In this document: piece after piece, positions 131 through 41,846 of the stretch
Layout of the letters: the number at the start of each line of letters is the position of its first letter
Numbering within the stretch: the stretch's first letter is position 1
Notes under the pieces: generated by a model
Databases searched by the model: none
What the model was told of the DNA's origin: nothing
What the model saw: the letters and a program-made list of their open reading frames with translations, nothing else
Assembly: GCA_016931955.1 (NCBI GenBank)
Contig: JAFGDV010000016.1
Span: forward strand, 1-41,846
DNA from: Candidatus Altarchaeota archaeon
GTDB taxonomy: Archaea; Altiarchaeota; Altiarchaeia; IMC4; QMZM01
DNA length: 41,846 nucleotides
Reading direction: 5' to 3'
Made by a program: the position numbers and the translations under genes

Positions 131-225
131 GAATCTGCCTTCGGCAGATTCCCGTTTTCGCCAGCCTTTTCCTAAAAGGCTGTGATGCAACCTTTTATGT
201 AAAAGGTTCCTACGAGTACGGACGC
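131..225 (+). repeat. Three-hairpin composite element, copy 1
   Basis: Three perfect hairpins in a row: GAATCTGCC/GGCAGATTC with loop TTC (131-151), AGCCTTTT/AAAAGGCT with loop CCT (163-181), and AACCTTTTA/TAAAAGGTT with loop TG (189-208). The last two are joined by GTGATGC, and the third carries the TTCCTACGAGTACGGACGC tail (207-225). The same order recurs at 8277-8352. The element ends about 80 bases before tpiA. Confidence 0.85.
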
Positions 226-306
226 GTGTTTATGTTTGTGTTGTAGGAAGTTATACGTATTCTATTCTTAAATTTCTCCTCTCATCTATTAACTAAGGTG
301 ATAATG

Positions 307-972
307 ATGGGTAACGTGATTATTCTGAATTTTAAGACCTATGAGGAGTCAACTGGAGATAAAGGATTAAAGCTGGCTAAGATCTGTGAGGAGGTTGCTG
401 AGGAGACTGGTGCAGAGATTATTGTGGCAGCGCAACTCTCCGACATATACCGAATCAGTCAGGTGGTGAAGATCCCAGTCTACGCGCAACACATAGACAA
501 CATAAAGTATGGGAGTAGCACTGGGCATGTTCTGGCGGAGGCGGCGAAGGCTGCCGGCGCAACCGGTTCATTGATAAATCACTCTGAACTCAGGTTGAAG
601 CTGGCAGACATTGAAGCCAATGTTGAGAAGTTGCTAGGTCTGAGTATGACTTCCGTCGTCTGCACGAACAACGTGAATACGACTAAGGCTGCCGCGGCTT
701 TGAAGCCAGATTATGTGGCGATTGAGCCACCCGAGTTAATAGGTAGCGGTATTTCAGTGTCTAAGGCGCAGCCTGATATCATATCTGGGAGCGTGGAAGC
801 CGCGAAGAAGGTTAATCCCCAAATTAGGGTATTATGCGGTGCGGGGATAAGCACTGGCGAAGACGTCCGGAAGGCTGTAGAACTGGGCGCCTGCGGCGTT
901 CTCCTAGCGTCTGGGGTGATTAAGGCGAAGGATCCCAGAGCGGTGTTGATGGATTTGGTTGAGGGGGTTTAG
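307..972 (+). CDS. tpiA: Triosephosphate isomerase (archaeal type)
   Basis: Interconverts dihydroxyacetone phosphate and glyceraldehyde 3-phosphate in glycolysis and gluconeogenesis, in the cytoplasm. The 221-aa length is the compact archaeal form (about 220-230 aa), shorter than bacterial enzymes (about 250). Visible catalytic residues are Asn8 and Lys10 in NFKTY, His92 in NHSE and Glu140 in EPPELIG; the phosphate-binding GAGIST and LLASGV segments close the barrel. I chose ATG 307 because an AAGGTGAT ribosome-binding stretch ends just before it; GTG 298 and ATG 304 are in frame and possible. A TATA-like TTAAATT lies near 268-274. Its stop overlaps by 4 bases with the convergent COG2433 gene. 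Confidence 0.96.
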   Translation: MGNVIILNFKTYEESTGDKGLKLAKICEEVAEETGAEIIVAAQLSDIYRISQVVKIPVYAQHIDNIKYGSSTGHVLAEAAKAAGATGSLINHSELRLKLADIEANVEKLLGLSMTSVVCTNNVNTTKAAAALKPDYVAIEPPELIGSGISVSKAQPDIISGSVEAAKKVNPQIRVLCGAGISTGEDVRKAVELGACGVLLASGVIKAKDPRAVLMDLVEGV

Positions 973-2024
973 GTTATTCTATGGCTCCTGTAGTCTTCCA
1001 CGATTTTTTCGAGTGAGACTGCCGCCTTGGTCAGCTTGCTGATATCGTCCGCTGAGATGAAGTAGCAGCCGGAAACCTCCCTCAGGTATTCGATGCCTGT
1101 GACAAAGATGTTTCTACTGGCAAGGATACTGTGGTTTGCTTTTTCGGGGGTGAACGCAACCTTCACCTTATCTAGAAGATCAAGGTCCTTCTTCTTCAGC
1201 CTCCTCAAGACGACGGTGTAGCCGTTGTAGACTTCAGGGAATACGCCTATTGGTTTAACTTCGCCCTTAGACAGTTTCTTCCAGAGTCTGCTTAGTTCTT
1301 CCAAGTCCTCTAGACGGTTTCTCATATGTTGGAGAGAGGACTCCATGCTTTTGAGGGAGAAGTCTCTCCTCTTTATCTCATCCTCTCTTCTGAGCTCGAC
1401 CCTGTATGCCCGCTTAGTCGCTGAAATCTTCTTCAGTAGATCCCTGATTTCTCTGTCTCTCTCTTCAAGCTGCTTCCTTAGGGAAAGGTTCTGTTTCTCA
1501 AGTCTGCGGATTTGTTTCTCTTCTTCCGTAGGTTCTCTCTCCTCCCTAAGTGGGGGCTCTATAACAGCTTCTGGTTCCTCCTCTTGGAGCATCTTCTTGG
1601 CTTCGCTGGTTGAGTGACCCTGCAAGACCAGGTGTTTGACGTCGTCTCCAAGATTCATGGAATCGATCTTCTGAAGCCTGTTCTTGAACCGATTGAACGT
1701 GAATAGGGCTGCTGCCAGAGAATCCCTCTGATGGGCGTCGGATGTCTTATGGTTTCGTGTAAGATCGATTTTCTCAGATACGGAGAGTGATTCAGGTGGA
1801 GTATAGACTCTGGCTCCAAGCTGTGCCGCAAGCTTGGAGACGAAACCTGGGGCAGGGTTCACGTCGGTAGCTATCACGGACGACCTGCCTGATTTAACCA
1901 ATCTATGGATTATCTTGTCCATGCTGAGGTCTTTGGAGCTGAATAAGTCAACAGGTTCGCCTCTGAAATTCAACACCGCTACTCCTGTTGTTGTCCCCGG
2001 ATCAACGCCAACAATGAGATACAA
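969..2024 (-). CDS. RuvC/RNase H-like coiled-coil protein (DUF460, COG2433)
   Basis: A 351-aa archaeal conserved protein. Residues 1-110 form an RNase H/RuvC-like fold: Asp8 in VGVDPGTTTG, Asp54 in ATDV and the DAHQRDS segment with Asp96 and Asp101 provide the expected acidic residues. Residues about 160-245 are strongly charged, heptad-like coiled coil, and a C-terminal globular part follows. Members of this family are annotated as possible nucleases; no reaction is settled from the sequence. It starts 11 bases after purF on the same strand, so the two probably share a transcript. The family call is firm and the activity is inference. Confidence 0.9.
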   Translation of the reverse strand: MYLIVGVDPGTTTGVAVLNFRGEPVDLFSSKDLSMDKIIHRLVKSGRSSVIATDVNPAPGFVSKLAAQLGARVYTPPESLSVSEKIDLTRNHKTSDAHQRDSLAAALFTFNRFKNRLQKIDSMNLGDDVKHLVLQGHSTSEAKKMLQEEEPEAVIEPPLREEREPTEEEKQIRRLEKQNLSLRKQLEERDREIRDLLKKISATKRAYRVELRREDEIKRRDFSLKSMESSLQHMRNRLEDLEELSRLWKKLSKGEVKPIGVFPEVYNGYTVVLRRLKKKDLDLLDKVKVAFTPEKANHSILASRNIFVTGIEYLREVSGCYFISADDISKLTKAAVSLEKIVEDYRSHRIT

Positions 2025-2035
2025 TTTAACCAGAT

Positions 2036-3397
2036 TCAGACGTTTAATTTAAGCTGCTCCTCCTTTATGGGATAGGATCCGTTCACGCATGCGAGACATA
2101 GATTCTCTGCAGGCAACCCTATGGCCTCAACCAGGCTGTCTATGGTGTTGTATGCTAGAGAGTCTGCGCCAATCTCTTTCCGGATGTCTTCGACCCCTTT
2201 TTTCTGGGCTATGAATTCCTCAGGTGTCTGCATGTCGATCCCATAATAGCAGGGGTTCTTTACCGGAGGACAGCTGACCCTCACATGGACTTCTGCGGCT
2301 CCGAAATCGCGGAGCAGGTTTATGATCCTCTTAACGGTTGTGCCCCTGACGATGGAGTCGTCCACTAAAACCAGCTTCTTGCCCTTTATTTCGCTCCTGA
2401 TGGGGTTCAGTTTTATTCTGACGCCGACGTCCCTCTCCGCCTGCTTCGGTAGTATGAAGGTTCTGCCAAAGTATCTATTCTTAATCAAGCCTTCACCGTA
2501 TAGGATACCAGAAGCCCTAGAGTAACCGATTGCTGCCGTAATCCCGGAATCTGGGACGGCGACGACCAGGTCGGCTTCGGCTGGAGCCTCCCTGGCAAGT
2601 ATCTCCCCGAGCTTCCTCCGGACCCCATAAACTGACACTCCATCGATGACTGAATCGGGTCGAGCGAAATAAACGTACTCGAACATGCAGTGGCATTTCC
2701 TCTCCTTCCGCGTCCTATAGGATTGGAGGGTGTCGCCTATTACGACGATTTCTCCAGCCCTGACGTCCCTCACCAGCTCGGCATTTACTGCGTCAAGTGC
2801 GCAACTCTCTGATGCGACATAAAAGGAATCATCTAACTTGCCCAGCACAAGGGGCTTGAATGCCCAGGGGTCGCGGACGGCGATGATGTTATCTCCTTTC
2901 AATATGACAAGTGAGTAAGAGCCTTTGAGCTGATTCACGGCCTGCTTCACGCCTTCAATGAAGTCCCCCAACCTGAGATGCTCCTGCGCAATCAGTTGAG
3001 CGATTATTTCCGTGTCTGAGGTGGTTATGAAGACGCTCCCCCTGGACTCCATCTGATGCTTCAGTTCCTCTGTATTCACAAGGTTCCCGTTGTGGGCGAG
3101 GGCGAAGCTGCCTTTGGCGTAGTTTATGACCAACGGCTGAGCGTTTTCTACGTCGGATGATCCGCTGGTGGAGTAGCGGACATGGCCTACGCCGGCGTTG
3201 CCCTCCAAGAAGACCCCCTTAAAGACTTCACAGACGAGGCCTTCGTCTCTGTGAAGGTTTATGCCGCTGTTGTAGGTCGCGATCCCAGCAGCCTCCTGGC
3301 CGCGGTGCTGCATAGAGTAGAGAGCGTAGTATATGGACTCAAAAACAGGTTTATCGGAGCGGACGCCGAAGACTGCACACTTTTCCCTACCAGCCAT
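2036..3397 (-). CDS. purF: Amidophosphoribosyltransferase
   Basis: Catalyses the first step of purine synthesis, PRPP plus glutamine to phosphoribosylamine. The 453-aa protein has an N-terminal Ntn glutaminase domain. The nucleophile should be Cys7 (KCAVFG), exposed by removal of the short propeptide MAGREK. The PRPP-binding loop is VLVDDSIVRGTT. Cysteines in CHCMFEYVYF, NPCYYGIDM and CLACVNG match the [4Fe-4S] ligands of the Bacillus-type enzyme. ATG 3397 is 38 bases from argJ on the other strand. An AT-rich box at 3421-3430 lies 24-33 bases upstream, so the transcript is probably leaderless. With purC elsewhere in the window, de novo purine synthesis seems present. Confidence 0.96.
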   Translation of the reverse strand: MAGREKCAVFGVRSDKPVFESIYYALYSMQHRGQEAAGIATYNSGINLHRDEGLVCEVFKGVFLEGNAGVGHVRYSTSGSSDVENAQPLVINYAKGSFALAHNGNLVNTEELKHQMESRGSVFITTSDTEIIAQLIAQEHLRLGDFIEGVKQAVNQLKGSYSLVILKGDNIIAVRDPWAFKPLVLGKLDDSFYVASESCALDAVNAELVRDVRAGEIVVIGDTLQSYRTRKERKCHCMFEYVYFARPDSVIDGVSVYGVRRKLGEILAREAPAEADLVVAVPDSGITAAIGYSRASGILYGEGLIKNRYFGRTFILPKQAERDVGVRIKLNPIRSEIKGKKLVLVDDSIVRGTTVKRIINLLRDFGAAEVHVRVSCPPVKNPCYYGIDMQTPEEFIAQKKGVEDIRKEIGADSLAYNTIDSLVEAIGLPAENLCLACVNGSYPIKEEQLKLNV

Positions 3398-3420
3398 TAT
3401 GTTATTATTTGAGTTTCAAA

Positions 3421-3430
3421 TTAAATAATT
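3421..3430 (-). promoter_or_regulatory. TATA box of purF
   Basis: On the minus strand this reads AATTATTTAA. Its centre is about 27 bases upstream of the purF ATG at 3397, the spacing expected for a leaderless archaeal promoter. It lies inside the 38-base gap shared with divergent argJ. Confidence 0.55.
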
Positions 3431-3435
3431 AAGTG

Positions 3436-4590
3436 ATGAAAATGGAGCGCTTGGATTCTGGTGTGTGCATAGGAGGCTTCAAGGCTTACGGGGTCAGGGA
3501 AGGCAAATACGGTGTGGCATTCATCGTCTGCGATCAGGTGTGCGATGTGGCTGCCGTTTACACTAAGAGCAGCGTCAAGGGGGCGCATATCCTCGTAGAC
3601 GAAAAGAAACAGAGTAATGGATTGCAGGCAATCATCGTCAATTCCGGTAACGCGAACGCCTACGTCAAAGACGGGGTGCAGGATGCTGAAAGAATGTGCG
3701 AGATAGCAGCCAAAGAGCTGGGCATTAAGGCAGAACACGTCGGCGTGGCGTCCACTGGGATAACCGGAAGAAAACTGGATCTGGAGAAGATTGAAAAACT
3801 AGTTGGGAAAGCAGTATCCAAGCTGACGTATTCCGCTGAAGGAAGCAGAAAAGCAGCTGAAGCCATCATGACGACGGATACGAAAGTGAAGGAATTGTGC
3901 TTCGAACACAATGGCATAAGGGTTGGAAGCATAGCTAAAGGCGCTGGGATGATCGCCCCAGACCTGGCGACGATGCTCTGCTTTCTGACGACCAACGCAG
4001 ACCTGGACAGAGAAGAACTGCAGAAGGCCCTTGAAAGAAGCGTAGAAGACAGCTTCAACATGCTCGTAGTGGACGGAGACATGAGCCCAAACGATACCGT
4101 GCTTTTGATGAGCAACCGGAAGAAAAAATGCAGCCTAGAGGACTTCCAATACATACTGGATCACACAACCAAGGAGATGGCTAAGTTGATGGCATGGGAT
4201 GGGGAAGGGGCGACGAAGTTCCTGGAGGTCGAAGTCAAAGGGGCGAGGAGCAGAGAAGAAGCCAAGGCCGCTGCTAAAGCAGTGACCTCATCCCCTCTGG
4301 TCAAGACTGCATTCTACGGAGAAAACCCGAACTGGGGAAGGATAGTTGCCGCAGTAGGGTCAAGGATCGGATTCAGCCTAGAAAAAATAGACTTGTTCTT
4401 CGAGTCAGGAAAACAGAGGGGGCAAGTTGTTGAAGGAGGTGTGGGTGGAGACCTGGAGAAGGCTGCTGAAATCCTGAAAAACAAGGAGATAAAGGTGATA
4501 ATAGATTTGAACGAGGGCGACTGGAAAGCGACAGCTTGGGGCTGCGATCTAACTGAAGACTATGTGAAAATAAACGCGAGGTATAACTGA
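3436..4590 (+). CDS. argJ: Glutamate N-acetyltransferase / ornithine acetyltransferase
   Basis: Transfers the acetyl group from N-acetylornithine to glutamate in the cyclic arginine pathway. The 384-aa precursor has the autocleavage site in KGAGMIAPDLATML; cleavage before Thr179 releases the beta chain with Thr as nucleophile. NSGNANA and the C-terminal GENPNWGRI are further family signatures. Whether it is mono- or bifunctional (also using acetyl-CoA) cannot be read from the sequence. ATG 3436 or 3442 could be the start; GTG 3433 is also in frame. The rhomboid gene begins two bases after its stop. No other arginine genes are in the window except the carB half. Confidence 0.95.
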   Translation: MKMERLDSGVCIGGFKAYGVREGKYGVAFIVCDQVCDVAAVYTKSSVKGAHILVDEKKQSNGLQAIIVNSGNANAYVKDGVQDAERMCEIAAKELGIKAEHVGVASTGITGRKLDLEKIEKLVGKAVSKLTYSAEGSRKAAEAIMTTDTKVKELCFEHNGIRVGSIAKGAGMIAPDLATMLCFLTTNADLDREELQKALERSVEDSFNMLVVDGDMSPNDTVLLMSNRKKKCSLEDFQYILDHTTKEMAKLMAWDGEGATKFLEVEVKGARSREEAKAAAKAVTSSPLVKTAFYGENPNWGRIVAAVGSRIGFSLEKIDLFFESGKQRGQVVEGGVGGDLEKAAEILKNKEIKVIIDLNEGDWKATAWGCDLTEDYVKINARYN

Positions 4591-4591
4591 T

Positions 4592-5206
4592 ATGAGGATA
4601 CTGGGACAACACATCAGGTTCATTGATCTAATGATCATCGTAAACGTCTTCGTCTACATCATGGGGCTGGGAACATACAGTATCCCAGACAACTTCGGAT
4701 TGTGGCCAGCCATGGTATTCACAGAGCCCTGGCGGATGATAACAAGCATGTTCATACACGGAAGCTTCGGTCATCTCCTGATGAATATGCTAGCACTCTA
4801 CTTCTTCGGGATGTGGATGGAAAGGATAGTAAGCGAGAGAGAGGTGATAAATATCTACTTCATAGGAGGCATCGCAGGTTCACTCTTTTATGTCTTTTTC
4901 GCCTTTTTAACACCTTTCGCATCGATAGACACCATAGCCGTAGGTGCCTCAGGCGCCCTCTTCGCTGTAGGCGGGGCTCTGGCAGTCATGAAACCCAACA
5001 TACGGGTTCTTATATTCCCCTTCCCCGTACCATTACCCCTCTGGCAGGCAGAGATTGTGATATTCTTCCTCGTGTCGTTCTTCCCAAACGTTGCATGGGA
5101 GGGTCACCTAGGCGGATTGATCGCTGGTGCGATCTTGGGCTACTACTACAAGAAAAAAGTGATAAGGGTCCCGGAGATAGTGTACTTCACGACGAGACAC
5201 TATTAG
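4592..5206 (+). CDS. Rhomboid-family intramembrane serine protease
   Basis: A 204-aa membrane protein with about six hydrophobic segments. The catalytic pair is visible: Ser120 in GASGAL and His172 in GHLGGL. The HGSFGHLLMNM segment (57-67), with an Asn for the oxyanion site, and the WMER-like loop are typical. It should cleave within transmembrane helices of other membrane proteins; the substrate is unknown. The ATG follows the argJ stop almost directly, so it may be cotranscribed without a functional link. It converges on the carB half gene, with adjacent ends. Confidence 0.94.
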   Translation: MRILGQHIRFIDLMIIVNVFVYIMGLGTYSIPDNFGLWPAMVFTEPWRMITSMFIHGSFGHLLMNMLALYFFGMWMERIVSEREVINIYFIGGIAGSLFYVFFAFLTPFASIDTIAVGASGALFAVGGALAVMKPNIRVLIFPFPVPLPLWQAEIVIFFLVSFFPNVAWEGHLGGLIAGAILGYYYKKKVIRVPEIVYFTTRHY

Positions 5207-6982
5207 TCAGCTATTGAAGTACTCATTCCATGACCTGACCTGGACCTCCCTGTTCTTGACCTGTTCTACGGCGTTCGCCGCCGCTGACGCGCTAGCTAAA
5301 GTCGTTATGTAGGGAACGTTCAACTCAACAGCACTGCACCTTATCATGTATCCATCCCTCCTCTGCTTTCTACCAGCAGTCGGTGTATTGATTATCAAGC
5401 TGATGTGTTTATCCCGCATCAGGTCAAGAACATTCGGCCTACCCTCACTTATCTTAAGGATCTTCCTGTTCTTGACGCCGTTCTCAGCCAAGTAGTCGGC
5501 TGTGCCGGCAGTCGAGATGACCTCGAAACCAAGCTCTGAGAACTTTCTCGCGATCTTCAGGATCCCTGGTTTATCCTTCTTCCTGACGCTTATGAAGACT
5601 GTGCCACTTAGTGGCAGCTCATTTCCTGCAGCTAACTGGGCCTTATAATAGGCCATCGCGAAGTCACGGTCTATGCCCATAACCTCCCCAGTAGACTTCA
5701 TCTCAGGCGATAAGACCGGATCCACACCAGGAAGCTTAATGAACGGAAAAACCACTTCCTTAACAGCCACATGCTTTATCTTCTTCATCGGCTCCATGTC
5801 TTGGACGATGTCCTTTATCTTCATCCCAACCATGATCTTGGCCGCGATCTTCGCCAGGGATATGCCAACCGCCTTGCTCACGAAGGGAACAGTTCTGGAA
5901 GCCCGCGGATTAGCCTCAAGCGTGTACACCACACCATCCTTGATAGCGTACTGTATGTTAATCAAGCCCCTCGTATTTAATGCAATAGCAAGCTTCTTTG
6001 TATACTCTATAACCCTGTTCACGATCTCCTCCTTAAGGGTCTGTGGGGGAACAACGCAGGCTGAATCCCCTGAATGAATCCCCGCTTCTTCGATGTGCTC
6101 CATGATCGCCCCTATCAAGACAGTCTCTCCATCGCAGACAGCGTCGACGTCAAGCTCTATCGCATCCTGCAGGAACTTGTCAATGAGGATCGGGTGCTTC
6201 GGCGAAACCTTGACCGCCTCCTTCACATATTCTTCAAGCTCTATTTCGTCGTGGACTATCTCCATGGCCCTTCCACCAAGAACGTAACTAGGCCGAATGA
6301 GAACTGGGTAGCCGATTTTCGCGGCAATATCCTTCGCCTCCTTGAAGCTGCGACCCGTACCCCATTCAGCAGAAGGCATACCCAATTTAGCTAGGATTTT
6401 CCCGAAGAGGTCTCGGTTCTCTGCTAAGTCGATGTCCTCGGGCCTTGTACCCAAGATGTTCACCCCGTGCTCTTTCAGGAGCATTGCGAGGTTTATGGCA
6501 GTCTGGCCACCGAACTGAACCATCACACCCAACAGGTTCCTTGACTCCTCCTCCACGACATTCAACACGTCCTCGAGCGTCAGGGGTTCGAAGTATAGCT
6601 TATCCGATATGTCAAAATCGGTTGAGACCGTCTCCGGGTTGTTGTTTATCACTATGGTTTCAAACCCAGTCTCCCTCAAAGCGAACACTGCCTGAACCGT
6701 GCAGCAGTCGAATTCAATGCCCTGCCCTATCCGAATAGGTCCTGCGCCAAGGATTATGACCTTCTCCCTGTCAGATACCTCGACTTCATCCTCTTCCTCA
6801 TATGTCGAGTAATAGTATGGCGTCTCTGCATCGAATTCCGCAGCACAGGTGTCGACCATCTTGTAGGTGGGTTTTATCCCTGCTTTCTTCCTTGACTCTC
6901 TGACCTTGTCTTCATCCCCCAATTGCTTGTCGAGGAAACCCATCTGCTTCATTTCCCTGATCTTATCCTTATCCTCTTTCAT
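5207..6982 (-). CDS. carB: Carbamoyl-phosphate synthase large subunit, C-terminal half
   Basis: 591 aa, compared with about 1070 for full CarB. It holds the second synthetase half: a short oligomerisation region, a pre-ATP-grasp segment (VIILGAGPIRIGQGIEFD), the ATP-grasp domain (about 195-400, with LEANPRASRTVPF) and the C-terminal MGS-like allosteric domain (from about residue 465, GTVFISVRKKDK). The N-terminal half is not next to it: a divergent prenyltransferase gene lies upstream. Split carB genes are known in Methanocaldococcus jannaschii and other archaea, so this is more likely a natural split than a broken gene. The missing half and carA should lie elsewhere. It feeds arginine and pyrimidine synthesis. 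Confidence 0.93.
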   Translation of the reverse strand: MKEDKDKIREMKQMGFLDKQLGDEDKVRESRKKAGIKPTYKMVDTCAAEFDAETPYYYSTYEEEDEVEVSDREKVIILGAGPIRIGQGIEFDCCTVQAVFALRETGFETIVINNNPETVSTDFDISDKLYFEPLTLEDVLNVVEEESRNLLGVMVQFGGQTAINLAMLLKEHGVNILGTRPEDIDLAENRDLFGKILAKLGMPSAEWGTGRSFKEAKDIAAKIGYPVLIRPSYVLGGRAMEIVHDEIELEEYVKEAVKVSPKHPILIDKFLQDAIELDVDAVCDGETVLIGAIMEHIEEAGIHSGDSACVVPPQTLKEEIVNRVIEYTKKLAIALNTRGLINIQYAIKDGVVYTLEANPRASRTVPFVSKAVGISLAKIAAKIMVGMKIKDIVQDMEPMKKIKHVAVKEVVFPFIKLPGVDPVLSPEMKSTGEVMGIDRDFAMAYYKAQLAAGNELPLSGTVFISVRKKDKPGILKIARKFSELGFEVISTAGTADYLAENGVKNRKILKISEGRPNVLDLMRDKHISLIINTPTAGRKQRRDGYMIRCSAVELNVPYITTLASASAAANAVEQVKNREVQVRSWNEYFNS

Positions 6983-6985
6983 CAG

Positions 6986-6992
6986 TATATAT
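6986..6992 (+). promoter_or_regulatory. TATA-like box before the prenyltransferase gene
   Basis: TATATAT about 31-37 bases upstream of ATG 7023. On the other strand, an AATATATT stretch (7008-7015) sits about 27 bases upstream of the carB start at 6982. The short region probably holds a divergent promoter pair. Confidence 0.45.
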
Positions 6993-7022
6993 CTTTAGAT
7001 GTGTTCAATATATTTTGAGTAT

Positions 7023-7919
7023 ATGATGGACTTCAAGAAAACCAAGGAAAACGTGATGCTCTTCTGGGAGCTGCTGAGGATGAGGAACGGGTTAATAGCA
7101 TTCTTCGGCGTATTGGTTGGAGCCTCATTCATCTACACCGAAGGCACACCAATACATTGGGCTTCCGTTTTCATAGCAGGTTTCTCTGCCTTCCTGATAA
7201 CTGGCGCAGGAAACGCATTAAACGACTACTGTGATTCAGAGATAGACAGGATAAACAAACCGAATAGGCCCATACCCTCCGGCAGAATATCCCGCAGCGA
7301 TACACTGATGCTCTCAACAGTCTTATTCCTCTTAGGCCTTGGTTTCTCCAAGTCGATCAACGACCTCTGTCTAATGATAGCATTCCTGAACTCCATCATC
7401 CTAGTAGTCTATGGAATCTACTCAAAGAAGATGCTCTTAGTGTCAAATCTAGGGATAAGCTTCCTCGTATCCTCTCTGTTCGTGTTCGGCGTTGCGGCAA
7501 CAGTCCAAGAGGGGGAGAACATACTACAGAAATTTGGGGTTGAAGGAATAAGCCTCATCACAATCATAACAGCATGTGCCTTCCTCATAACCATGGCAAG
7601 GGAGGTAATAAAAGACATCGAGGATATAAAAGGGGACAAAGAAAAATACGCAGTAACCCTACCAATAAGCATAGGAGAAACCAGAACAAAAAAAATCGCC
7701 TCAGCTTTTACATTAATTGCGATACTATTAAGCCTACTACCATTTATCATACGAGTCGGGGCCTTCAACCTCTACGTCTACGGCTTCATCCTGTTAATCG
7801 CTGACCTGATATTCATCATCTCGCTCACCATGCACCCCTCCCTAAGCCAGAGGATGATGGTATTAGGCATGGGCTTCGCGCTATCCGCCTTCTTCCTAGC
7901 CAACATCTTAGCCCTATAG
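7023..7919 (+). CDS. UbiA-family prenyltransferase, probable digeranylgeranylglyceryl-phosphate synthase
   Basis: Probably adds the second geranylgeranyl chain to geranylgeranylglyceryl phosphate in archaeal membrane lipid synthesis. The 298-aa protein has about eight to nine membrane helices. The first Asp-rich motif is NALNDYCDSEIDRINKPNRP (64-83), followed by the PSGRIS signature; the second is REVIKDIEDIKGDKE. Both bind the Mg-diphosphate of the prenyl donor. ATG 7023 and 7026 are both good starts; ATG 6999 would add a segment overlapping the promoter. Other UbiA enzymes (quinone or heme pathways) share these motifs, but the PNRPIPSG form is usual in the archaeal lipid enzyme. Confidence 0.88.
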   Translation: MMDFKKTKENVMLFWELLRMRNGLIAFFGVLVGASFIYTEGTPIHWASVFIAGFSAFLITGAGNALNDYCDSEIDRINKPNRPIPSGRISRSDTLMLSTVLFLLGLGFSKSINDLCLMIAFLNSIILVVYGIYSKKMLLVSNLGISFLVSSLFVFGVAATVQEGENILQKFGVEGISLITIITACAFLITMAREVIKDIEDIKGDKEKYAVTLPISIGETRTKKIASAFTLIAILLSLLPFIIRVGAFNLYVYGFILLIADLIFIISLTMHPSLSQRMMVLGMGFALSAFFLANILAL

Positions 7920-7967
7920 TAGCACCAAATTTAATGAAGACATTCTAAATTATAACTCAACTAAAAC

Positions 7968-8048
7968 GCCCTCGTAGCTCAGGCACCCTTTTCTTTACGA
8001 AAGAAAAGCGTGCACGGAAAAGAAAAAGTTGGTATCCTAATGCCGACT
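7968..8048 (+). pseudogene. Fragment of a tRNA-Thr 5' end joined to two hairpins
   Basis: Bases 7968-7982 (GCCCTCGTAGCTCAG) are identical to the first 15 bases of the complete tRNA 110 bases downstream. The D arm is not completed. A hairpin follows (CTTTTCTTT/AAAGAAAAG, loop ACG, 7988-8008, with outer GCAC/GTGC pairs at 7983-7986 and 8010-8013). A second, wobble-containing hairpin follows (AGTTGGTAT/ATGCCGACT, 8027-8048). No T arm or 3' acceptor half is present, so it cannot make a normal tRNA. Confidence 0.7.
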
Positions 8049-8077
8049 AAAAAAGACAAAAACAAAAATTTATACAT

Positions 8078-8169
8078 GCCCTCGTAGCTCAGCCTGGTGG
8101 AGCGCTTGCTTGGTATCAGAAAAGACGACAAAAAGCAAGAAGCCCCGGGTTCAAACCCCGGCGAGGGCT
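8078..8169 (+). tRNA. tRNA-Thr (GGU anticodon), with an 18-nt insertion in the anticodon loop
   Basis: The cloverleaf reads directly: acceptor GCCCTCG/CGAGGGC (8078-8084, 8162-8168), U73 discriminator at 8169, D stem GCTC/GAGC, anticodon stem CTTGC/GCAAG (8105-8109, 8135-8139), T stem CCGGG/CCCGG with TTCAAAC loop. Bases 8112-8114 give anticodon GGT, and U73 fits archaeal tRNA-Thr. Between A37 (8115) and A38 (8134) are 18 extra bases, the canonical intron position 37/38. Without them the tRNA is 74 nt. CCA is not encoded. The exon-intron region forms only a weak bulge-helix-bulge, so the intron call is less sure than the tRNA. Confidence 0.9.
8116..8133 (+). other. Candidate tRNA intron (18 nt)
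   Basis: Inserted after position 37 of the tRNA-Thr anticodon loop, the usual archaeal site cut by the splicing endonuclease. It is A-rich and short. I could pair only GT/AC (8113-8114 with 8128-8129) and TC/GA (8116-8117 with 8124-8125), which is poorer than a standard 4-bp bulge-helix-bulge helix. Confidence 0.6.
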
Positions 8170-8174
8170 AAAGC

Positions 8175-8188
8175 ACTTTCTTTTTTTC
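8175..8188 (+). terminator. T-rich terminator after tRNA-Thr
   Basis: A pyrimidine run with seven consecutive T begins six bases after the tRNA end. Archaeal RNA polymerase stops at such T tracts. TTCTTTTT can also pair with AAAAAGAA just downstream (to about 8198). Confidence 0.55.
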
Positions 8189-8209
8189 CTAAAAAGAAGG
8201 GTGTATCAG

Positions 8210-8256
8210 CAAGACGCTTAGCGTCTTGTCTGAGTCGAAACTAAAAGTTTCGCTCA
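8210..8256 (+). repeat. Two-hairpin element with TCTGAGT linker, copy 1
   Basis: Hairpin CAAGACGC/GCGTCTTG with loop TTA (8210-8228), linker TCTGAGT (8229-8235), hairpin CGAAACT/AGTTTCG with loop AAA (8236-8252), then CTCA. TGAG in the linker can pair with CTCA after the second hairpin, extending that stem around one bulged T. The same architecture, inverted, lies at 41769-41818, where the CAAGACGC stem is kept. Confidence 0.85.
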
Positions 8257-8276
8257 TCATCCCAGAGAAAAACGTT

Positions 8277-8352
8277 GAATTTGCCTTAGGCAAATTCTTT
8301 TTGATCAACCTTTTATAAAAAGGTTGTGAAGCAACCTTTTACGAAAAGGTTG
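8277..8352 (+). repeat. Three-hairpin composite element, copy 2
   Basis: GAATTTGCC/GGCAAATTC with loop TTA (8277-8297), CAACCTTTT/AAAAGGTTG with loop ATA (8306-8326), TGAAG linker, and CAACCTTTT/AAAAGGTTG with loop ACG (8332-8352). Order and linker match 131-208. The first stem differs from copy 1 by one base pair changed on both sides (C-G to T-A). It ends nine bases before the purC ATG. Confidence 0.87.
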
Positions 8353-8361
8353 GGGTTGAAA

Positions 8362-9198
8362 ATGGCTGGAGAAAAACTAGTGTATCGAGGAAAATCAAAG
8401 GATGTTTATGAGATAAGTAGGGGAGAACACGCTGGAAGATACCGCTTTGTTTTCACAGACAGGGCGACTGGTTATATTGAAGATGGAAAGCCTGTCTTCG
8501 ATCCAGGATACGACGTCGTCGTCGGTGAGATTCCAGGAAAAGGAGCCATAGCATGCGGGTTTGCGACATACTTCTTCAAGCTCTTACAGGATTATGATAT
8601 CCCATCACACTATATCGAAACCGTAGGCGACAACGAGATGATCGTCAAACCCGCGACGCCGATAAGCATGCCAGCTGAGGCGCCGGAATTCGAAGGAGCA
8701 GCTCCCATGCAGAACATCGAGTGGACTTGGAGGAACAACACACAAGGAAGCTTCTGGCGCAGGTATCCATTCGTGAAACCCGGCAAGAATCTCAATCAAG
8801 TGGTTGAAGCATGGACTAAGGGAGCATCAGACACTCTCATAACATTCGAGGCACTGGAGGCTTCAGGAGCGATGACCAAGGGGGAGATAACATACTCTGA
8901 AAAACTCGTCAAGGATATCGCCGAAATCGTAAGCAAGGAATTCACGTCGAAGGGACTGCACGTAGTGGATGGAAAATTCGAGCTCGGAAGGCTGAAGGGA
9001 GGTAGCGGAGAAATCGTATTGATAGATGAAATATCCCCAGACGTGCTGAGGGTGTGTAAGGGGTATGTGTCAGGAGAAAACGGCGACTGCAAGTCTTACA
9101 GGAAATGCATAAACACAAGCCTAATCGACGGTAAAAGAACAATAAAAGCCAGAAACCTGCTGACCGCCAGCGACCTGCAGGAGATATTCCTAAGATAA
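8362..9198 (+). CDS. purC: Phosphoribosylaminoimidazole-succinocarboxamide synthase (SAICAR synthetase)
   Basis: Joins aspartate to carboxyaminoimidazole ribonucleotide with ATP in purine synthesis. The 278-aa protein starts with the family's YRGKSKDVYE ATP-site strand and ends with the diagnostic LIDEISPDVLR segment (about residues 222-232), preceded by KFELGR. An ATG at 8326 is in frame but lies inside the hairpin element, so I chose ATG 8362, after the GGGGTTG stretch. The third hairpin of the composite element stops nine bases before this start, so the hairpins may lie in the mRNA leader and affect translation. purF is elsewhere in the window; they are not in one operon. Confidence 0.92.
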   Translation: MAGEKLVYRGKSKDVYEISRGEHAGRYRFVFTDRATGYIEDGKPVFDPGYDVVVGEIPGKGAIACGFATYFFKLLQDYDIPSHYIETVGDNEMIVKPATPISMPAEAPEFEGAAPMQNIEWTWRNNTQGSFWRRYPFVKPGKNLNQVVEAWTKGASDTLITFEALEASGAMTKGEITYSEKLVKDIAEIVSKEFTSKGLHVVDGKFELGRLKGGSGEIVLIDEISPDVLRVCKGYVSGENGDCKSYRKCINTSLIDGKRTIKARNLLTASDLQEIFLR

Positions 9199-11283: not shown

Positions 11284-11913
11284 CTATTCGATTGAGTAAT
11301 CGAGTCTCGCAAGCCCCTTAAGTTTTTCTATCATCTCCCCTGAGGAGTCGAATACTGTGATAGTGTCTACTTCATTGTCCCAGAAGGGGTCTTTCCTGTT
11401 CATGTAGATGCCCTCTTCGGTGTTTAAGCCTTCTCCCGTATGAATCGACACAGAGGCTCCGGCTTTCAGATAGAATTCCGGCAACTCGAACGTGCTCTTA
11501 TAGTTCTTGTTCCTGATCCTCCAACCAGTCAGATTCACCGTATAGTCTCCAGTGTTCTTGAGTATAATCCATTCCTCCTCAAGGAAACTCTTCTCTGGTG
11601 TGTATGGGGACTCAAACTGGTAGCCTGCAATCCTCACGTCACTGCTGGTCTTCAGGATGGGAAGGGTTGTTGTGGAGGTTGTTGTCGTCGAAGTCGTCGT
11701 AGATGTTGACGTAGTAGTTGACGTGGTCGACGTCGTGGTTGAGGAGGATGTTGTAACCGCAGGCTGCTGGAGGCAACAAAAGGAATATGCTAAGAAAACG
11801 AGAAAAACCAAGAGAGCGAAAAAAGCCAAGACAAACAAGGGGGATATCTTCTTAGGTTTTTTGGGTTTCTTAGGAGTCTCCTCTTTAGCGGGTTGGGGGG
11901 TTTTTTCTTCCAT
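11284..11913 (-). CDS. Membrane-anchored surface protein with Thr stalk and lamin-tail-like domain
   Basis: 209 aa: a lysine/proline-rich cytoplasmic start (1-22), one hydrophobic anchor (about 23-47), a Thr/Ser stalk (54-83) and a beta-rich C-terminal domain. The segment EEEWIILKNTGDYTVNLTGW with later YLKAGASVSIHTG fits a lamin tail domain, which in prokaryotes occurs in secreted or surface proteins, sometimes near nucleases. The role here is unknown. ATG 11913 is chosen because any longer start would run into the divergent hxlB gene. A TTTTATTT stretch about 27-30 bases upstream can serve as its promoter. Confidence 0.82.
   Translation of the reverse strand: MEEKTPQPAKEETPKKPKKPKKISPLFVLAFFALLVFLVFLAYSFCCLQQPAVTTSSSTTTSTTSTTTSTSTTTSTTTTSTTTLPILKTSSDVRIAGYQFESPYTPEKSFLEEEWIILKNTGDYTVNLTGWRIRNKNYKSTFELPEFYLKAGASVSIHTGEGLNTEEGIYMNRKDPFWDNEVDTITVFDSSGEMIEKLKGLARLDYSIE
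11665..11754 (-). repeat. Thr/Ser-stalk coding repeat in the lamin-tail protein
   Basis: Thirty codons for Thr and Ser only. Thr codons are mixed (ACA, ACC, ACT and ACG), so the protein rather than the DNA is repetitive. Such stalks are likely glycosylated spacers that raise the domain above the surface layer. Confidence 0.8.
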
Positions 11914-33657: not shown

Positions 33658-35016
33658 CTATTCTTCAATCACATAGAACCTGGGTTCTCCTGTCTCTTCC
33701 AGCCTACACATTCCCACAATCAGGTTATCAATTTTTCCTCCAAAATCGAAGCCGCTTTGGATTAATTTAATCGATCCATCTGGTTTTTCCACGTCTAGTG
33801 TTGCTGCTACGGCTTCATTGTTCCTTGAGTAAACAAAGTGGTCAATCCTGAAACCATAATCCTTGTATGGGATGAATTCTTCACCCGATATCCCTTCCAG
33901 AAGATGTGCATTTGTTGGAATACAGTCCTCGAAGTCGGGTGGTTTTATGTAGACGATTACGTATGAGTGTTCCATGGAGGCGTAGCTTAGAGAGACCTCT
34001 ATGTCGTTGATTTTCTTTGCAAGACCGCTGCAGAACAGGACATGTTCACTTTCGTTTCCTTCGGCGTCTACAATATGTAAGACTATGCCTTCTTCAGGGT
34101 GCTCAAAGAAGTAGTTCAACCTAAATCCATAGAATACCCCAGGTGAAGTTTCGTAGTAGACCATTTCTTCTGGCTCCAACATCAAGCAACCCTCTACATC
34201 GCATTTTCTGCCGCATTTCCAGAAGCCTTCCAAGACCCTACAGTATACCTTACCTGTGAAGCAGACGTCTTTTTCGCCTATCGTCTGTGCGTAGGCTACA
34301 GTATAGCCCCCAGGGTATGACGAGATTTCCAGTATGCCAAATTCTATGTCGTCTATTGTCGTTTTCTCTCCTTCTCTCAAATCGCAGTAGACAGCTTCTT
34401 CATCTGGTTTTTGTATCCGAAGATTGACTTCTTCCAGCGACCTAGGGTATTCTTGCCTGAATCTATATCCCATGTATTCTCTCTCAAACATCCTGTAGTC
34501 TTTCCCTCCAATAGTGAAGACTGTAGAGTATAGCGGTGCCTTGGAAGCTCCACTGTATTTTTGAACATATATTTTAACCTTTATCGCTCCCGGAATTTTT
34601 TCCATGACACCAAACTCTAGGCCGTCTATGATGCTTTTTTCGTAGAAGACCTCGGTTTTAGTGGCATTATCTGGTGTCTTTATCTCGAACTCATATTGGT
34701 TGCCTTTACTGGTCGAGACTACGTTTTCAATGCGGAATTCATATCCCCCATACCCCCCAGGGTTTGTAGCGTCTATGTAGAATGTCGTCGAAGTGGTGGT
34801 TGATGATGTCGTCGTGAATATCTTTGTTGTCGTAGTTGTAGTAATCGCCGTTGTAGTGGTTGTTGCCGTAGTTGCAGTGGTTGTCATTGTATAGGTGGTT
34901 GTCGCTTCTTTGGTGGTGGTCGTTATTTCTATTTCAGTTTCCTTTTTTTCCTCAATGCAACAAGCTAATAGGCTCAACAGTATAACTGCGATAGATAATC
35001 TTTTTCCATTGTTCAT
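33658..35016 (-). CDS. Thr-stalk lipoprotein with four tandem repeat domains
   Basis: 452 aa. The signal peptide ends in a lipobox (LLAC, Cys19), then a Thr-rich stalk (32-78). The rest consists of four related units starting near residues 89, 181, 294 and 384. Each opens with Y-x-F-R (YEFRIENVV, YRFRQEYP, YGFRLNYFF, YGFRIDHFV) and contains an I-[DN]-[GDN]-[LI] turn followed by a strand. Units two and three are separated by a Cys-rich insert (252-277). I do not recognise the fold. It is an outer-surface protein, possibly binding a ligand through repeated beta domains. Its ATG overlaps the stop of the propeller gene by four bases. Confidence 0.83.
   Translation of the reverse strand: MNNGKRLSIAVILLSLLACCIEEKKETEIEITTTTKEATTTYTMTTTATTATTTTTAITTTTTTKIFTTTSSTTTSTTFYIDATNPGGYGGYEFRIENVVSTSKGNQYEFEIKTPDNATKTEVFYEKSIIDGLEFGVMEKIPGAIKVKIYVQKYSGASKAPLYSTVFTIGGKDYRMFEREYMGYRFRQEYPRSLEEVNLRIQKPDEEAVYCDLREGEKTTIDDIEFGILEISSYPGGYTVAYAQTIGEKDVCFTGKVYCRVLEGFWKCGRKCDVEGCLMLEPEEMVYYETSPGVFYGFRLNYFFEHPEEGIVLHIVDAEGNESEHVLFCSGLAKKINDIEVSLSYASMEHSYVIVYIKPPDFEDCIPTNAHLLEGISGEEFIPYKDYGFRIDHFVYSRNNEAVAATLDVEKPDGSIKLIQSGFDFGGKIDNLIVGMCRLEETGEPRFYVIEE
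34783..34923 (-). repeat. Thr-stalk coding repeat, four-repeat lipoprotein
   Basis: 47 codons, mostly Thr, with some Ser, Ala, Ile, Lys, Tyr and Met. Thr codons are mixed, so the repetition lies in the protein. The interspersed residues make this stalk less regular than those in the neighbouring genes. Confidence 0.75.
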
Positions 35017-36374
35017 TTTTTGTAATTGGGTCCCTGGAACATGTAGAACTTGTATCCTTTAGACTCTGTTTCCACTATGTCTGCACCTAATTGACTTATC
35101 CTTGTCTCTTTCACGACTTCTTCTGTGCTGGCCGCAATAAACCTACCATATGAAGTCATCTCTGCTTTATCTATCTTGTAGTCTGCCTTGTATTTCCAGA
35201 GAAGGTTTCCTTCCTCGTCGAATACATACAGTTGACTGTCTTTGCCACCCGCAAGCACGTATTTTCCGTCTTCTGTTATGTCCACGTCGGCTATCTGCCA
35301 TCTTGCCGTGTAATTCCAAAGCATTTTTCCTTCCCCATCAAAGAAGTAGACTTTGTTGTTGTAGCTGCCCGCAACTATTCGGCTGCCGTCCGAGTTCATG
35401 ACAGCGGAACTGAATCCTTCAGGTACGGCGTACTCCCATAATAGGTCGTCATCTTCGTATACACTGATTTTGTTGTTTCTTACGTAGATGTTGTCGTATA
35501 GTGCTATCATGCTTGTTTTTCCGTCAAAGCTTACCGCTGCATCAGAGTACAGGCCTTCTTCTCTTATTTCCCTGACTTTTAGGCCATACTCGTTGTAGAA
35601 TTCTATTCTTACTTCCCGCTCTCCTTCGTTGCTGATGTAGACTGCGGCGTAACGTGCGTCTTCTGTTAGCTTGACCCCTTTTATATCATCATCGTATGTC
35701 CAATCCCATTTAAAGCGGTCTACTCCATGGGGTTCGATGCACGCCCCCCATTGGAATTCTCCATCTAAGTCAAAGACTTTGATTTCTCCTGAGCTGACTG
35801 ACGCTATGTATTTTTTGTGCGGTGAAAGGTCTACTGCGCTTCCAGATGTCCTGACCTTTGTTAGGCTACGGTCTGTTATGTCTTTTCGGCAGGATTCGAT
35901 TTTGGATCTGTTGAGTGTGTACTTGAAGCATTCTGGGTTCATGAGGGGATGCTTTTTGTTTATTATCCTGCATGTTTCAAAGTAGATTTCTCCTGTATTG
36001 GTTATTATTATGTTATAGTAGAAGGTTAGTTTTTCTGTTCCCGCTGGGTTGCCTTCTGAATCGAATATGTAGATTTTATCCGCCATTAATACTGCTTCCC
36101 CGTTTTCTGCGAGCGCTATCTGGCTTATGGAGTCATTGAATGTGTACTCCCATAGTAGGTAGTCTTTTCCTTCAGTAGATGGTGTCGTCGTTGATGTGGT
36201 TGATGTGGTTGTCGTCGACGTTGAAGTGGTCGTAGTCGTTGTTGAGGTCGTTGTAGTAGTTGTGGTTGTCGTAGTCGTAGTAGTTGTCGTGATTTTCGTC
36301 GTCGTGGTCTCCGGCTGCTGCGTGCAGCCTACAAGCAAACTCAATAACAACACAAACAGGATTATTTTTTTCAT
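35013..36374 (-). CDS. Thr-stalk lipoprotein with beta-propeller (PQQ/WD-like repeats)
   Basis: 453 aa from ATG 36374. Lipobox LLVGC (Cys17), Thr stalk (23-67), then blades of a beta-propeller. The units LLWEYTFNDSISQIALAENG, DLLWEYAVPEGFSSAVMNSD, MLWNYTARWQIADVDITEDG and LLWKYKADYKIDKAEMTSYG, each followed by an IYIFDSEGN-like strand, match the DUF5711/PQQ-like archaeal surface propellers. It could bind a partner or sense a ligand; no catalytic residues are seen. It is coupled to the four-repeat lipoprotein by a four-base overlap, so the two probably form a surface complex or share regulation. The in-frame ATG 36389 is less likely. Confidence 0.87.
   Translation of the reverse strand: MKKIILFVLLLSLLVGCTQQPETTTTKITTTTTTTTTTTTTTTSTTTTTTSTSTTTTSTTSTTTPSTEGKDYLLWEYTFNDSISQIALAENGEAVLMADKIYIFDSEGNPAGTEKLTFYYNIIITNTGEIYFETCRIINKKHPLMNPECFKYTLNRSKIESCRKDITDRSLTKVRTSGSAVDLSPHKKYIASVSSGEIKVFDLDGEFQWGACIEPHGVDRFKWDWTYDDDIKGVKLTEDARYAAVYISNEGEREVRIEFYNEYGLKVREIREEGLYSDAAVSFDGKTSMIALYDNIYVRNNKISVYEDDDLLWEYAVPEGFSSAVMNSDGSRIVAGSYNNKVYFFDGEGKMLWNYTARWQIADVDITEDGKYVLAGGKDSQLYVFDEEGNLLWKYKADYKIDKAEMTSYGRFIAASTEEVVKETRISQLGADIVETESKGYKFYMFQGPNYKK
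36174..36308 (-). repeat. Thr-stalk coding repeat, beta-propeller lipoprotein
   Basis: 45 codons, nearly all Thr and Ser, including a run of 15 Thr. All Thr codons are used in mixed order, which argues against recent slippage of a single triplet. Confidence 0.8.
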
Positions 36375-37987: not shown

Positions 37988-38413
37988 TTAGTTTACGCGT
38001 ACTTCACCTTTCATTTGAGGGTGATAGCCGCAGTGGTAGAAAAAATTCCCTGCTTTATCGAAGGTTCGGCTGTATGTTCCGCCTTTGAGCAGGTCACCTG
38101 ACTTGAAGCCGATGCCTTCGACGCTGTGGCGTGCAGAATCCTCATTCACCCAAGTAACGGTTTCGCCTCGGTTTATCGTCACCGGCGAAGGATCAAAGGC
38201 AAAGTTCTTGATCCTTACCACTGTGCCGGCAAGGGTTGTAGTGGTTGACGTAGTCGTCGTAGTGCTTGTCGTAGTAGTAGTCGTCGAAGTAGTCGTGGTC
38301 GTAGACGTCGTAGTAGTAGTCGTAGTCATGGAAGTCGTTGTTGTAGTCGTCTGCTCCTGAACACACCCACTCCACAAAACCATTAAGACCAGCAAAGGAA
38401 TAATCCACTTCAT
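37988..38413 (-). CDS. Thr-stalk cupredoxin lipoprotein 2 (plastocyanin-like)
   Basis: 141 aa. Lipobox LWSGC (Cys17), a 39-residue Thr/Ser stalk (22-60) and a blue-copper domain with ligands His96 (ARHSV), Cys128, His131 and Met134 (HCGYHPQMKG). Its copper domain differs clearly from cupredoxin 1, so the pair is an old duplication or two recruitments, not a recent copy. It is an external electron carrier by family; the partners are unknown. A perfect inverted repeat lies seven bases upstream of the start. Confidence 0.92.
   Translation of the reverse strand: MKWIIPLLVLMVLWSGCVQEQTTTTTTSMTTTTTTTSTTTTTSTTTTTTSTTTTTSTTTTLAGTVVRIKNFAFDPSPVTINRGETVTWVNEDSARHSVEGIGFKSGDLLKGGTYSRTFDKAGNFFYHCGYHPQMKGEVRVN
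38234..38350 (-). repeat. Thr-stalk coding repeat, cupredoxin 2
   Basis: 39 codons, almost all Thr, with Ser at near-regular intervals of about six to eight residues. Codons ACA, ACC, ACG and ACT alternate irregularly. Confidence 0.8.
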
Positions 38414-41768: not shown

Positions 41769-41818
41769 ATGAGCAAGACGCAAAGCGTCTTGACTCAGAC
41801 AAGACCCTCTGGGTCTTG
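41769..41818 (-). repeat. Two-hairpin element with TCTGAGT linker, copy 2 (inverted)
   Basis: Read on the minus strand: hairpin CAAGACCC/GGGTCTTG (loop AGA), linker TCTGAGT, hairpin CAAGACGC/GCGTCTTG (loop TTT), then CTCAT. The same linker and the same CTCAT end occur at 8229-8235 and 8253-8257. It is thus the same module in the other orientation, 33 kb away. It follows the last small membrane protein and may also act in its 3' end. Confidence 0.87.
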
Positions 41819-41846
41819 CTGAACACGTTAAAATGTCAAAAACAAA

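Follow-up and report, generated by a model that had tools for sequence, protein, structure and literature searches.

Yeast mitochondrial GC clusters and the double-hairpin elements of fungal mitochondria are tiny, non-coding mobile palindromes without a transposase of their own, and they duplicate 0-2 bp. The palindromic elements of Rickettsia are small as well and invade genes, mostly in frame in open reading frames; long duplications are not a hallmark of them. The hairpin clusters described here resemble the fungal elements as tiny mobile palindromes that spread between sites, but they reside in an archaeal chromosome, come with duplications of 11 to about 105 bp, and are biased toward tRNA genes and gene ends. 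They share with the Rickettsia elements the small palindromes that also enter genes, but differ in sequence. Bacterial REP/BIME sequences (RAYT, TnpA-REP) are alike in being short intergenic palindromes, in forming mosaic composites, and apparently in carrying a short conserved foot sequence. They lack the target duplications (15-105 bp) and the many different stems per element seen here, where in turn a Y1 transposase is missing; compared with the REP/BIME tetranucleotide, the foot linker is NANC or GGCG, varies with the stem, and is not GTAG. MITEs, too, are short, non-autonomous, hairpin-forming, and accompanied by target duplications. Their duplications are of fixed length, however, whereas those found here vary (15-105 bp), and in place of terminal inverted repeats that pair the two ends the archaeal elements have a complete hairpin at one end and a variable other end. 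One fixed end, one variable end, and duplications of variable length characterize SINEs and other non-LTR elements and were also found here, but the host is an archaeon and RVT_1 is absent from its own genome.

The window, that is the whole stretch of 41,846 nucleotides from a Candidatus Altarchaeota archaeon, contains two such clusters. Both are real and far from chance: AACCTTTT..AAAAGGTT with a short loop occurs four times in the window as compared with 0 in 100 dinucleotide shuffles, and the RNA folding z-scores of the two cluster stretches are -6.6 and -7.6 versus shuffles. Their parts are as follows (hairpins carry no strand; + is the forward strand).

24-44: C-type hairpin GAACCTTTTATGAAAAGGTTC, with a TTTTGAT linker before it (read in the sequence)
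44-60, +: left copy of the target duplication, CCTACGAGTACGGACGC, a perfect repeat of 209-225 at a distance of 165 bp
69-85: small hairpin GAGAA..TTCTC (read directly)
99-121: hairpin module D, ATAAGGGCA CCTTA TGCCCTTAT, also in L002, L003, L004, L006, and L066
131-151: hairpin module A, GAATCTGCC TTC GGCAGATTC (E 2.2e-8 together with the next module)
162-182: hairpin module B, CAGCCTTTT CCT AAAAGGCTG, linker CGTTTTCGC (folding and reading)
189-208: hairpin module C, AACCTTTT ATGT AAAAGGTT, its foot adjoining the right target copy
209-225, +: right copy of the target duplication, CCTACGAGTACGGACGC (direct-repeat search)
7968-7982, +: duplicated 5' end of tRNA-Phe (GCCCTCGTAGCTCAG), 15/15 identical to 8078-8092
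7983-8013: hairpin module E, GCACCCTTTTCTTT ACG AAAGAAAAGCGTGC, its foot adjoining the target copy
8078-8169, +: tRNA-Phe gene with intron, the insertion target (Rfam, ARAGORN)
8174-8203: hairpin module E, CACTTTCTTTTT..AAAAAGAAGGGTG (read in the sequence)
8210-8228: hairpin module H2, CAAGACGC TTA GCGTCTTG (reading and folding)
8231-8256: hairpin module H3, TGAGTCGAAAC..GTTTCGCTCA (reading and folding)
8277-8297: hairpin module A, GAATTTGCC TTA GGCAAATTC (reading, covariance model, and folding)
8298-8305, +: linker TTTTTGAT (with the next C, TTTTTGATC)
8306-8326: hairpin module C, CAACCTTTT ATA AAAAGGTTG (reading and folding)
8332-8352: second hairpin module C, CAACCTTTT ACG AAAAGGTTG; the purC start codon is at 8362
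41771-41821: two further H2-type hairpins, GAGCAAGACGC..GCGTCTTGACTC and CAGACAAGACC..GGTCTTGCTG

A preliminary description of this DNA had reported the order hairpin A, middle hairpin, short TGA linker, and hairpin C at 131-208 and 8277-8352. Inspection of the letters confirmed this order, with a TGATG or TGAAG linker at both sites, and also that one pair of hairpin A is C-G in one copy and T-A in the other. The middle hairpin, said to differ in both outer pairs, has a single changed pair (G-C to A-T), with CAGCC.../...GGCTG at 162-182 and CAACC.../...GGTTG at 8306-8326; the two are of different type, the former being a B-type and the latter a C-type module. The unit is also larger than had been described, as module D and a C hairpin (24-44) lie before the first site and modules E, H2, and H3 before the second, and it is accompanied by flanking direct repeats that had gone unmentioned, namely the pair of CCTACGAGTACGGACGC and the pair of tRNA 5' ends GCCCTCGTAGCTCAG. 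At the left target copy the identity reaches from 36 to 60 and runs through the hairpin arm. Module B recurs in L005, L007, L012 (within a tRNA intron), and L062. The tRNA-Phe gene was missed by ARAGORN in bacterial mode and found by Rfam and by ARAGORN in archaeal intron mode. The product of purC (8362-9198) matches mostly bacterial PurC proteins (Spirochaetota, Bacteroidales, Lentisphaerae) and one from Asgard archaea, with 71% identity to the best match, which suggests horizontal transfer of this archaeal gene. Several genes of the window contain long low-complexity repeats of the GTNGTN type (11653-11751, 34780-34903, 36168-36320, and 38225-38362), a 75-nt family with 20 copies in the window that possibly encodes threonine-rich stalks of surface proteins.

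A covariance-model scan, which the preliminary description had proposed, was applied to the organism's own genome (G000; 1.55 Mb in 46 contigs) with a model built from six A-C composites, the copy at 131 being left out. The scan recovered the omitted copy (E 2e-8) and yielded 37 hits altogether (E<=0.008), at 29 loci; perfect C hairpins number 12 in this genome. Two isolated copies, or arms that do not covary, which had been named as marks of a chance duplication, are not what was found: there are about 29 loci, and the changes in pairing are two-sided. The mosaics are composed of seven or more types of small hairpin module (E, H2, H3, A, B, C, and D), in subsets that vary by locus (D-A-C, E-A-B-C, E-H2-H3-A-C, B-E-A-C, and A-C-D). 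The layout A-B-TGA-C, initially taken as fixed, is one among many such combinations. At the loci read, module copies occur in both orientations and next to unrelated genes. Contigs C1, C3, C9, C10, C24, C27, C37, and C46 terminate in these modules, so that the arrays may have broken the assembly. In genome G008, a C or E hairpin can carry in its loop a nested multi-branched hairpin cluster with GGGCCC between the stems (L140, L148).

Structures of this kind might be functional host RNAs, such as terminators, processing signals, or small RNAs, which are kept by selection on the fold. The strong covariation, folding z-scores of -6.5 to -8.7 over the hairpin stretches tested, and the frequent location of hairpins just after tRNA or CDS ends would be in line with such a function. 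It is nevertheless quite improbable, because module order, number, and orientation vary, copies are also found at CDS starts, before tRNA genes, and inside tRNA introns (L004, L012, and L069, and in other genomes L215 and L226), target duplications are present, and the same place is empty in related species. Moreover, tRNA excepted, no Rfam family exceeds its gathering score at the elements. Selection for a host-useful fold alone, one of two explanations offered at the outset, is thus unsupported given the copies in either orientation, beside unrelated genes, and in tRNA introns. The other, a mobile palindromic module drifting in pairs, gains support from the many copies, from the 16 of 18 pairs that have changed on both arms, and from the duplications and empty sites.

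Target duplications were analyzed across all fetched archaeal loci. A repeat adjoins the hairpin foot in 30 of 163 C-type hairpins versus 7 of 1630 random positions, and lies on the opposite, linker side in only 7. No duplication is detectable at 133 of the 163 copies, which we attribute to age or to other modules that flank the copies. Among 70 direct-repeat pairs in 364 kb, the spacer is hairpin-rich in 5, as compared with 4 of 1400 control spacers. The 49 duplication calls, which come from scans of both strands and include a few elements twice, span 15-105 bp with a median of 29, plus one tandem array. In 33 of these calls no more than 4 bp separate the hairpin foot from the repeat edge, with repeat boundaries uncertain by a few bases. 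Over all loci the length ranges from 11 bp (L012, read by eye) to about 105 bp. In the window, CCTACGAGTACGGACGC at 44-60 and 209-225 brackets the D-A-B-C cluster. A second copy of the initial 15 bases of tRNA-Phe (8078-8092) is located at 7968-7982, where an E hairpin directly adjoins it with its foot. Elsewhere, the duplicated sequences are tRNA 3' ends (Leu at L003, Arg at L006, Pro at L066 with three in tandem, and Val at L076), a tRNA 5' end (L012), CDS starts (hisA-like at L001 and gatE at L062, gene names being read off the sequence), and CDS ends (L054, L068). One element consists of only 40 bp between perfect 42-bp copies in genome G022 (L201) and has no open reading frame. Element and target copy have been amplified in tandem at L086 (G009) and L151 (G013), and contig C236 of G013 holds four tandem copies spaced by 129 bp.

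The elements thus have a polarity, with one fixed end at the hairpin foot against the duplication and a variable other end. A SINE-like retroelement, whose RNA ends in hairpin C and is reverse-transcribed at a nicked target, would leave exactly such a fixed 3' end and variable 5' end plus duplications, and the lengths of 15-105 bp also agree with this mechanism. However, RVT_1 (searched with the single profile PF00078) is absent from G000, from the copy-rich relatives G002, G008, and G009, and from G046 and G047, and a SINE-like origin therefore appears unlikely.

The insertion sites are not random. In the own genome, 9 of the 29 loci are located within 150 bp of tRNA genes versus 0.14 expected (binomial P about 1e-14, computed on the 17 tRNA genes found by Rfam). 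Repeat edges inside tRNA genes, as read by eye, mostly fall in the T-loop (TTCRAATC) or the D-arm. A protein gene, gatE, has been hit repeatedly: in four lineages of the order (G000, G006, G018, and G020), elements are found at the same codons (GIEIHQQ), to within about 6 bp. The target copies are 100% identical in G006 (40 bp) and G018 (49 bp) and have diverged in G000 and G020. The site is empty in the sister species G001 of the same genus, and the plain gene is also found in G003, G008, G010, G016, G017, G022, and G023. This comparison demonstrates local duplication at insertion, recurrent use of the target, and an empty site; the gatE genes are intact because one target copy completes the gene. 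An orthologous empty site was also sought in Methanocaldococcus by way of L280, but the gene there belongs to a multicopy family and is uninformative.

T-loop edges, D-arm edges, and gene ends are also the classic targets of integrases, and an integrated element can supply a gene end that restores its target, as e14 does in icd. The clusters could then be attachment-site scars of tyrosine-integrase elements that carried the gene end in, and some duplicates indeed differ mainly at third codon positions. Such an origin is hardly probable at all, since the copies in G006 and G018 are identical and match the local gene, the same hairpins occur at dozens of different targets, elements can be as short as the one at L201, and a tyrosine recombinase, of which G000 has one match, is absent from the copy-rich genomes G002, G009, and G046. 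The third-position bias was rejected as proof of foreign gene ends in view of the identical G006 and G018 copies, because purifying selection on the intact copy combined with neutral drift of the fragment would look alike.

In the alignment of 32 hits, from which the above-mentioned two-sided changes were counted, 98.9% of the cells are paired. The covariation score of these hits is 0.284 versus 0.094 in shuffles, in an alignment that was fitted to the model and is biased towards it. Together with the copies in either orientation, at unrelated genes, and in tRNA introns, the two-sided changes indicate that the fold probably matters for the movement of the element. Copying may require the fold and thereby maintain perfect pairing, or template switching from arm to arm may maintain it. 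In the latter case pairing would be mutational and unselected, as template switching (quasi-palindrome correction) copies changes from one arm to the other. This is a possibility to be reckoned with, if not the one we favor: pairing is near-always perfect even in short copies, and the process would act on any inserted palindrome, but it leaves the copies, the duplications, and the conserved linker unexplained. It agrees with the interpretation as mobile elements and does not compete with it.

Between the stem core and AAAA lie seven bases that change in step with the stem. Among 186 C-type hairpins, the base at linker position 6 varies together with the outer base of the stem, a stem T going with a linker T in 77 of 79 cases and a stem C with a linker C in 26 of 30, and GCTG stems go with GGCG. 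This suggests that stem and linker are recognized together. The palindromes with a short conserved foot linker that co-varies with its stem, and the mosaic arrays resembling BIMEs, also speak for elements of the REP/BIME or MITE type that an HUH-Y1 (RAYT/IS200) or DDE transposase mobilizes in trans. We regard this as very improbable, because Y1_Tnp (PF01797) is absent from G000, G002, G009, G046, and G047 in the family search, and HUH-Y1 transposition gives no target duplication and DDE transposition a short one of fixed length. Cas1 is absent from all genomes tested (G000, G002, G009, G046, G047, G364, G366, and G249), unlike what casposons or other Cas1-mediated integration would require. 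Hence, no mobilizing enzyme was found among the families searched (Y1, RVT_1, tyrosine recombinase, and Cas1), and nothing tested among them matches the long and variable target duplications. This leaves another enzyme or the host machinery.

Taken together, the clusters likely are non-autonomous, structure-dependent mobile elements that are copied from the hairpin foot, probably by host machinery. The elements are non-coding, measure 30 to about 300 bp, and consist of short perfect hairpins in mosaic arrangement. Their fixed end is the foot of a C-, B-, or E-type hairpin (NNCTTTT..AAAAGNN), after which comes an A(T/C)CAAAA linker. Their copies, modules, duplications, polarity, target bias, empty sites, and recurrent insertion in gatE are directly supported, and from these we infer how copying would proceed. 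Starting from the hairpin foot where the target is nicked, it would extend over a variable distance through target-primed or template-switch synthesis, with host replication or repair enzymes or another enzyme at work. The fixed foot and variable far end agree with a start of synthesis at the foot, in the manner of target-primed reverse transcription or template switching. Against this reading, duplications of variable length are unusual for a DNA transposon, and most of the copies lack a detectable one. Pairing would be retained because the fold itself is what gets copied. Insertion favors tRNA genes or their flanks, as well as protein genes at their 5' or 3' end. The elements would be seen at gene ends because only those insertions survive whose duplication leaves one gene copy intact.

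The motif is not confined to this lineage. The generic pattern CTTTT N2-12 AAAAG NTTNANCAAAA, which represents hairpin C with a TTTTGATC-type linker, is present in 92 of 394 archaeal genomes; a reversed-pattern control gave three single hits in all. Among the carriers are G234 (chromosome of 1,664,970), which we take to be Methanocaldococcus jannaschii, and G222 (chromosome of 2,088,737), presumably Thermococcus kodakarensis; likewise, we take G148 (chromosome of 1,485,061) to be M. fervens, G217 M. vulcanius, and G166 M. infernus. In the complete genome G234, duplications of 45, 32, 65, 23, and 27 bp occur at C-type hairpins, so the elements are not an artifact of metagenome assembly. Loci L206-L231 (G222 and G115) contain related hairpins in units of 230-300 bp that end in TTCCGCCAGCGCT and form arrays; at the G222 loci, where the arrays are longer, no clear duplication was seen. 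Two viral contigs from IMG/VR (L261, L262), one of them with six listed open reading frames, contain three motifs of C hairpin plus linker, and such viruses are possible vehicles between hosts. A description of these elements in archaea was not found in the open-access literature; subscription journals were mostly beyond the scope of the search, and an earlier account may exist.

We tentatively propose, while deeming it doubtful in this full form, that the elements are an ancient, archaea-wide type of mobile DNA without an enzyme of its own, in which conserved enzymes of host replication, repair, or RNA processing recognize the hairpin and its stem-matched linker, copy them into nicked tRNA loops and gene ends, and leave long, variable duplications. 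If this is true, M. jannaschii, T. kodakarensis, and many uncultured archaea would share one family of tiny mobile elements, and this family would shape tRNA genes, tRNA introns, and gene ends. None of the enzymes tested accounts for target duplications of such length and variability, so the movement of this DNA perhaps relies on the machinery of the host.
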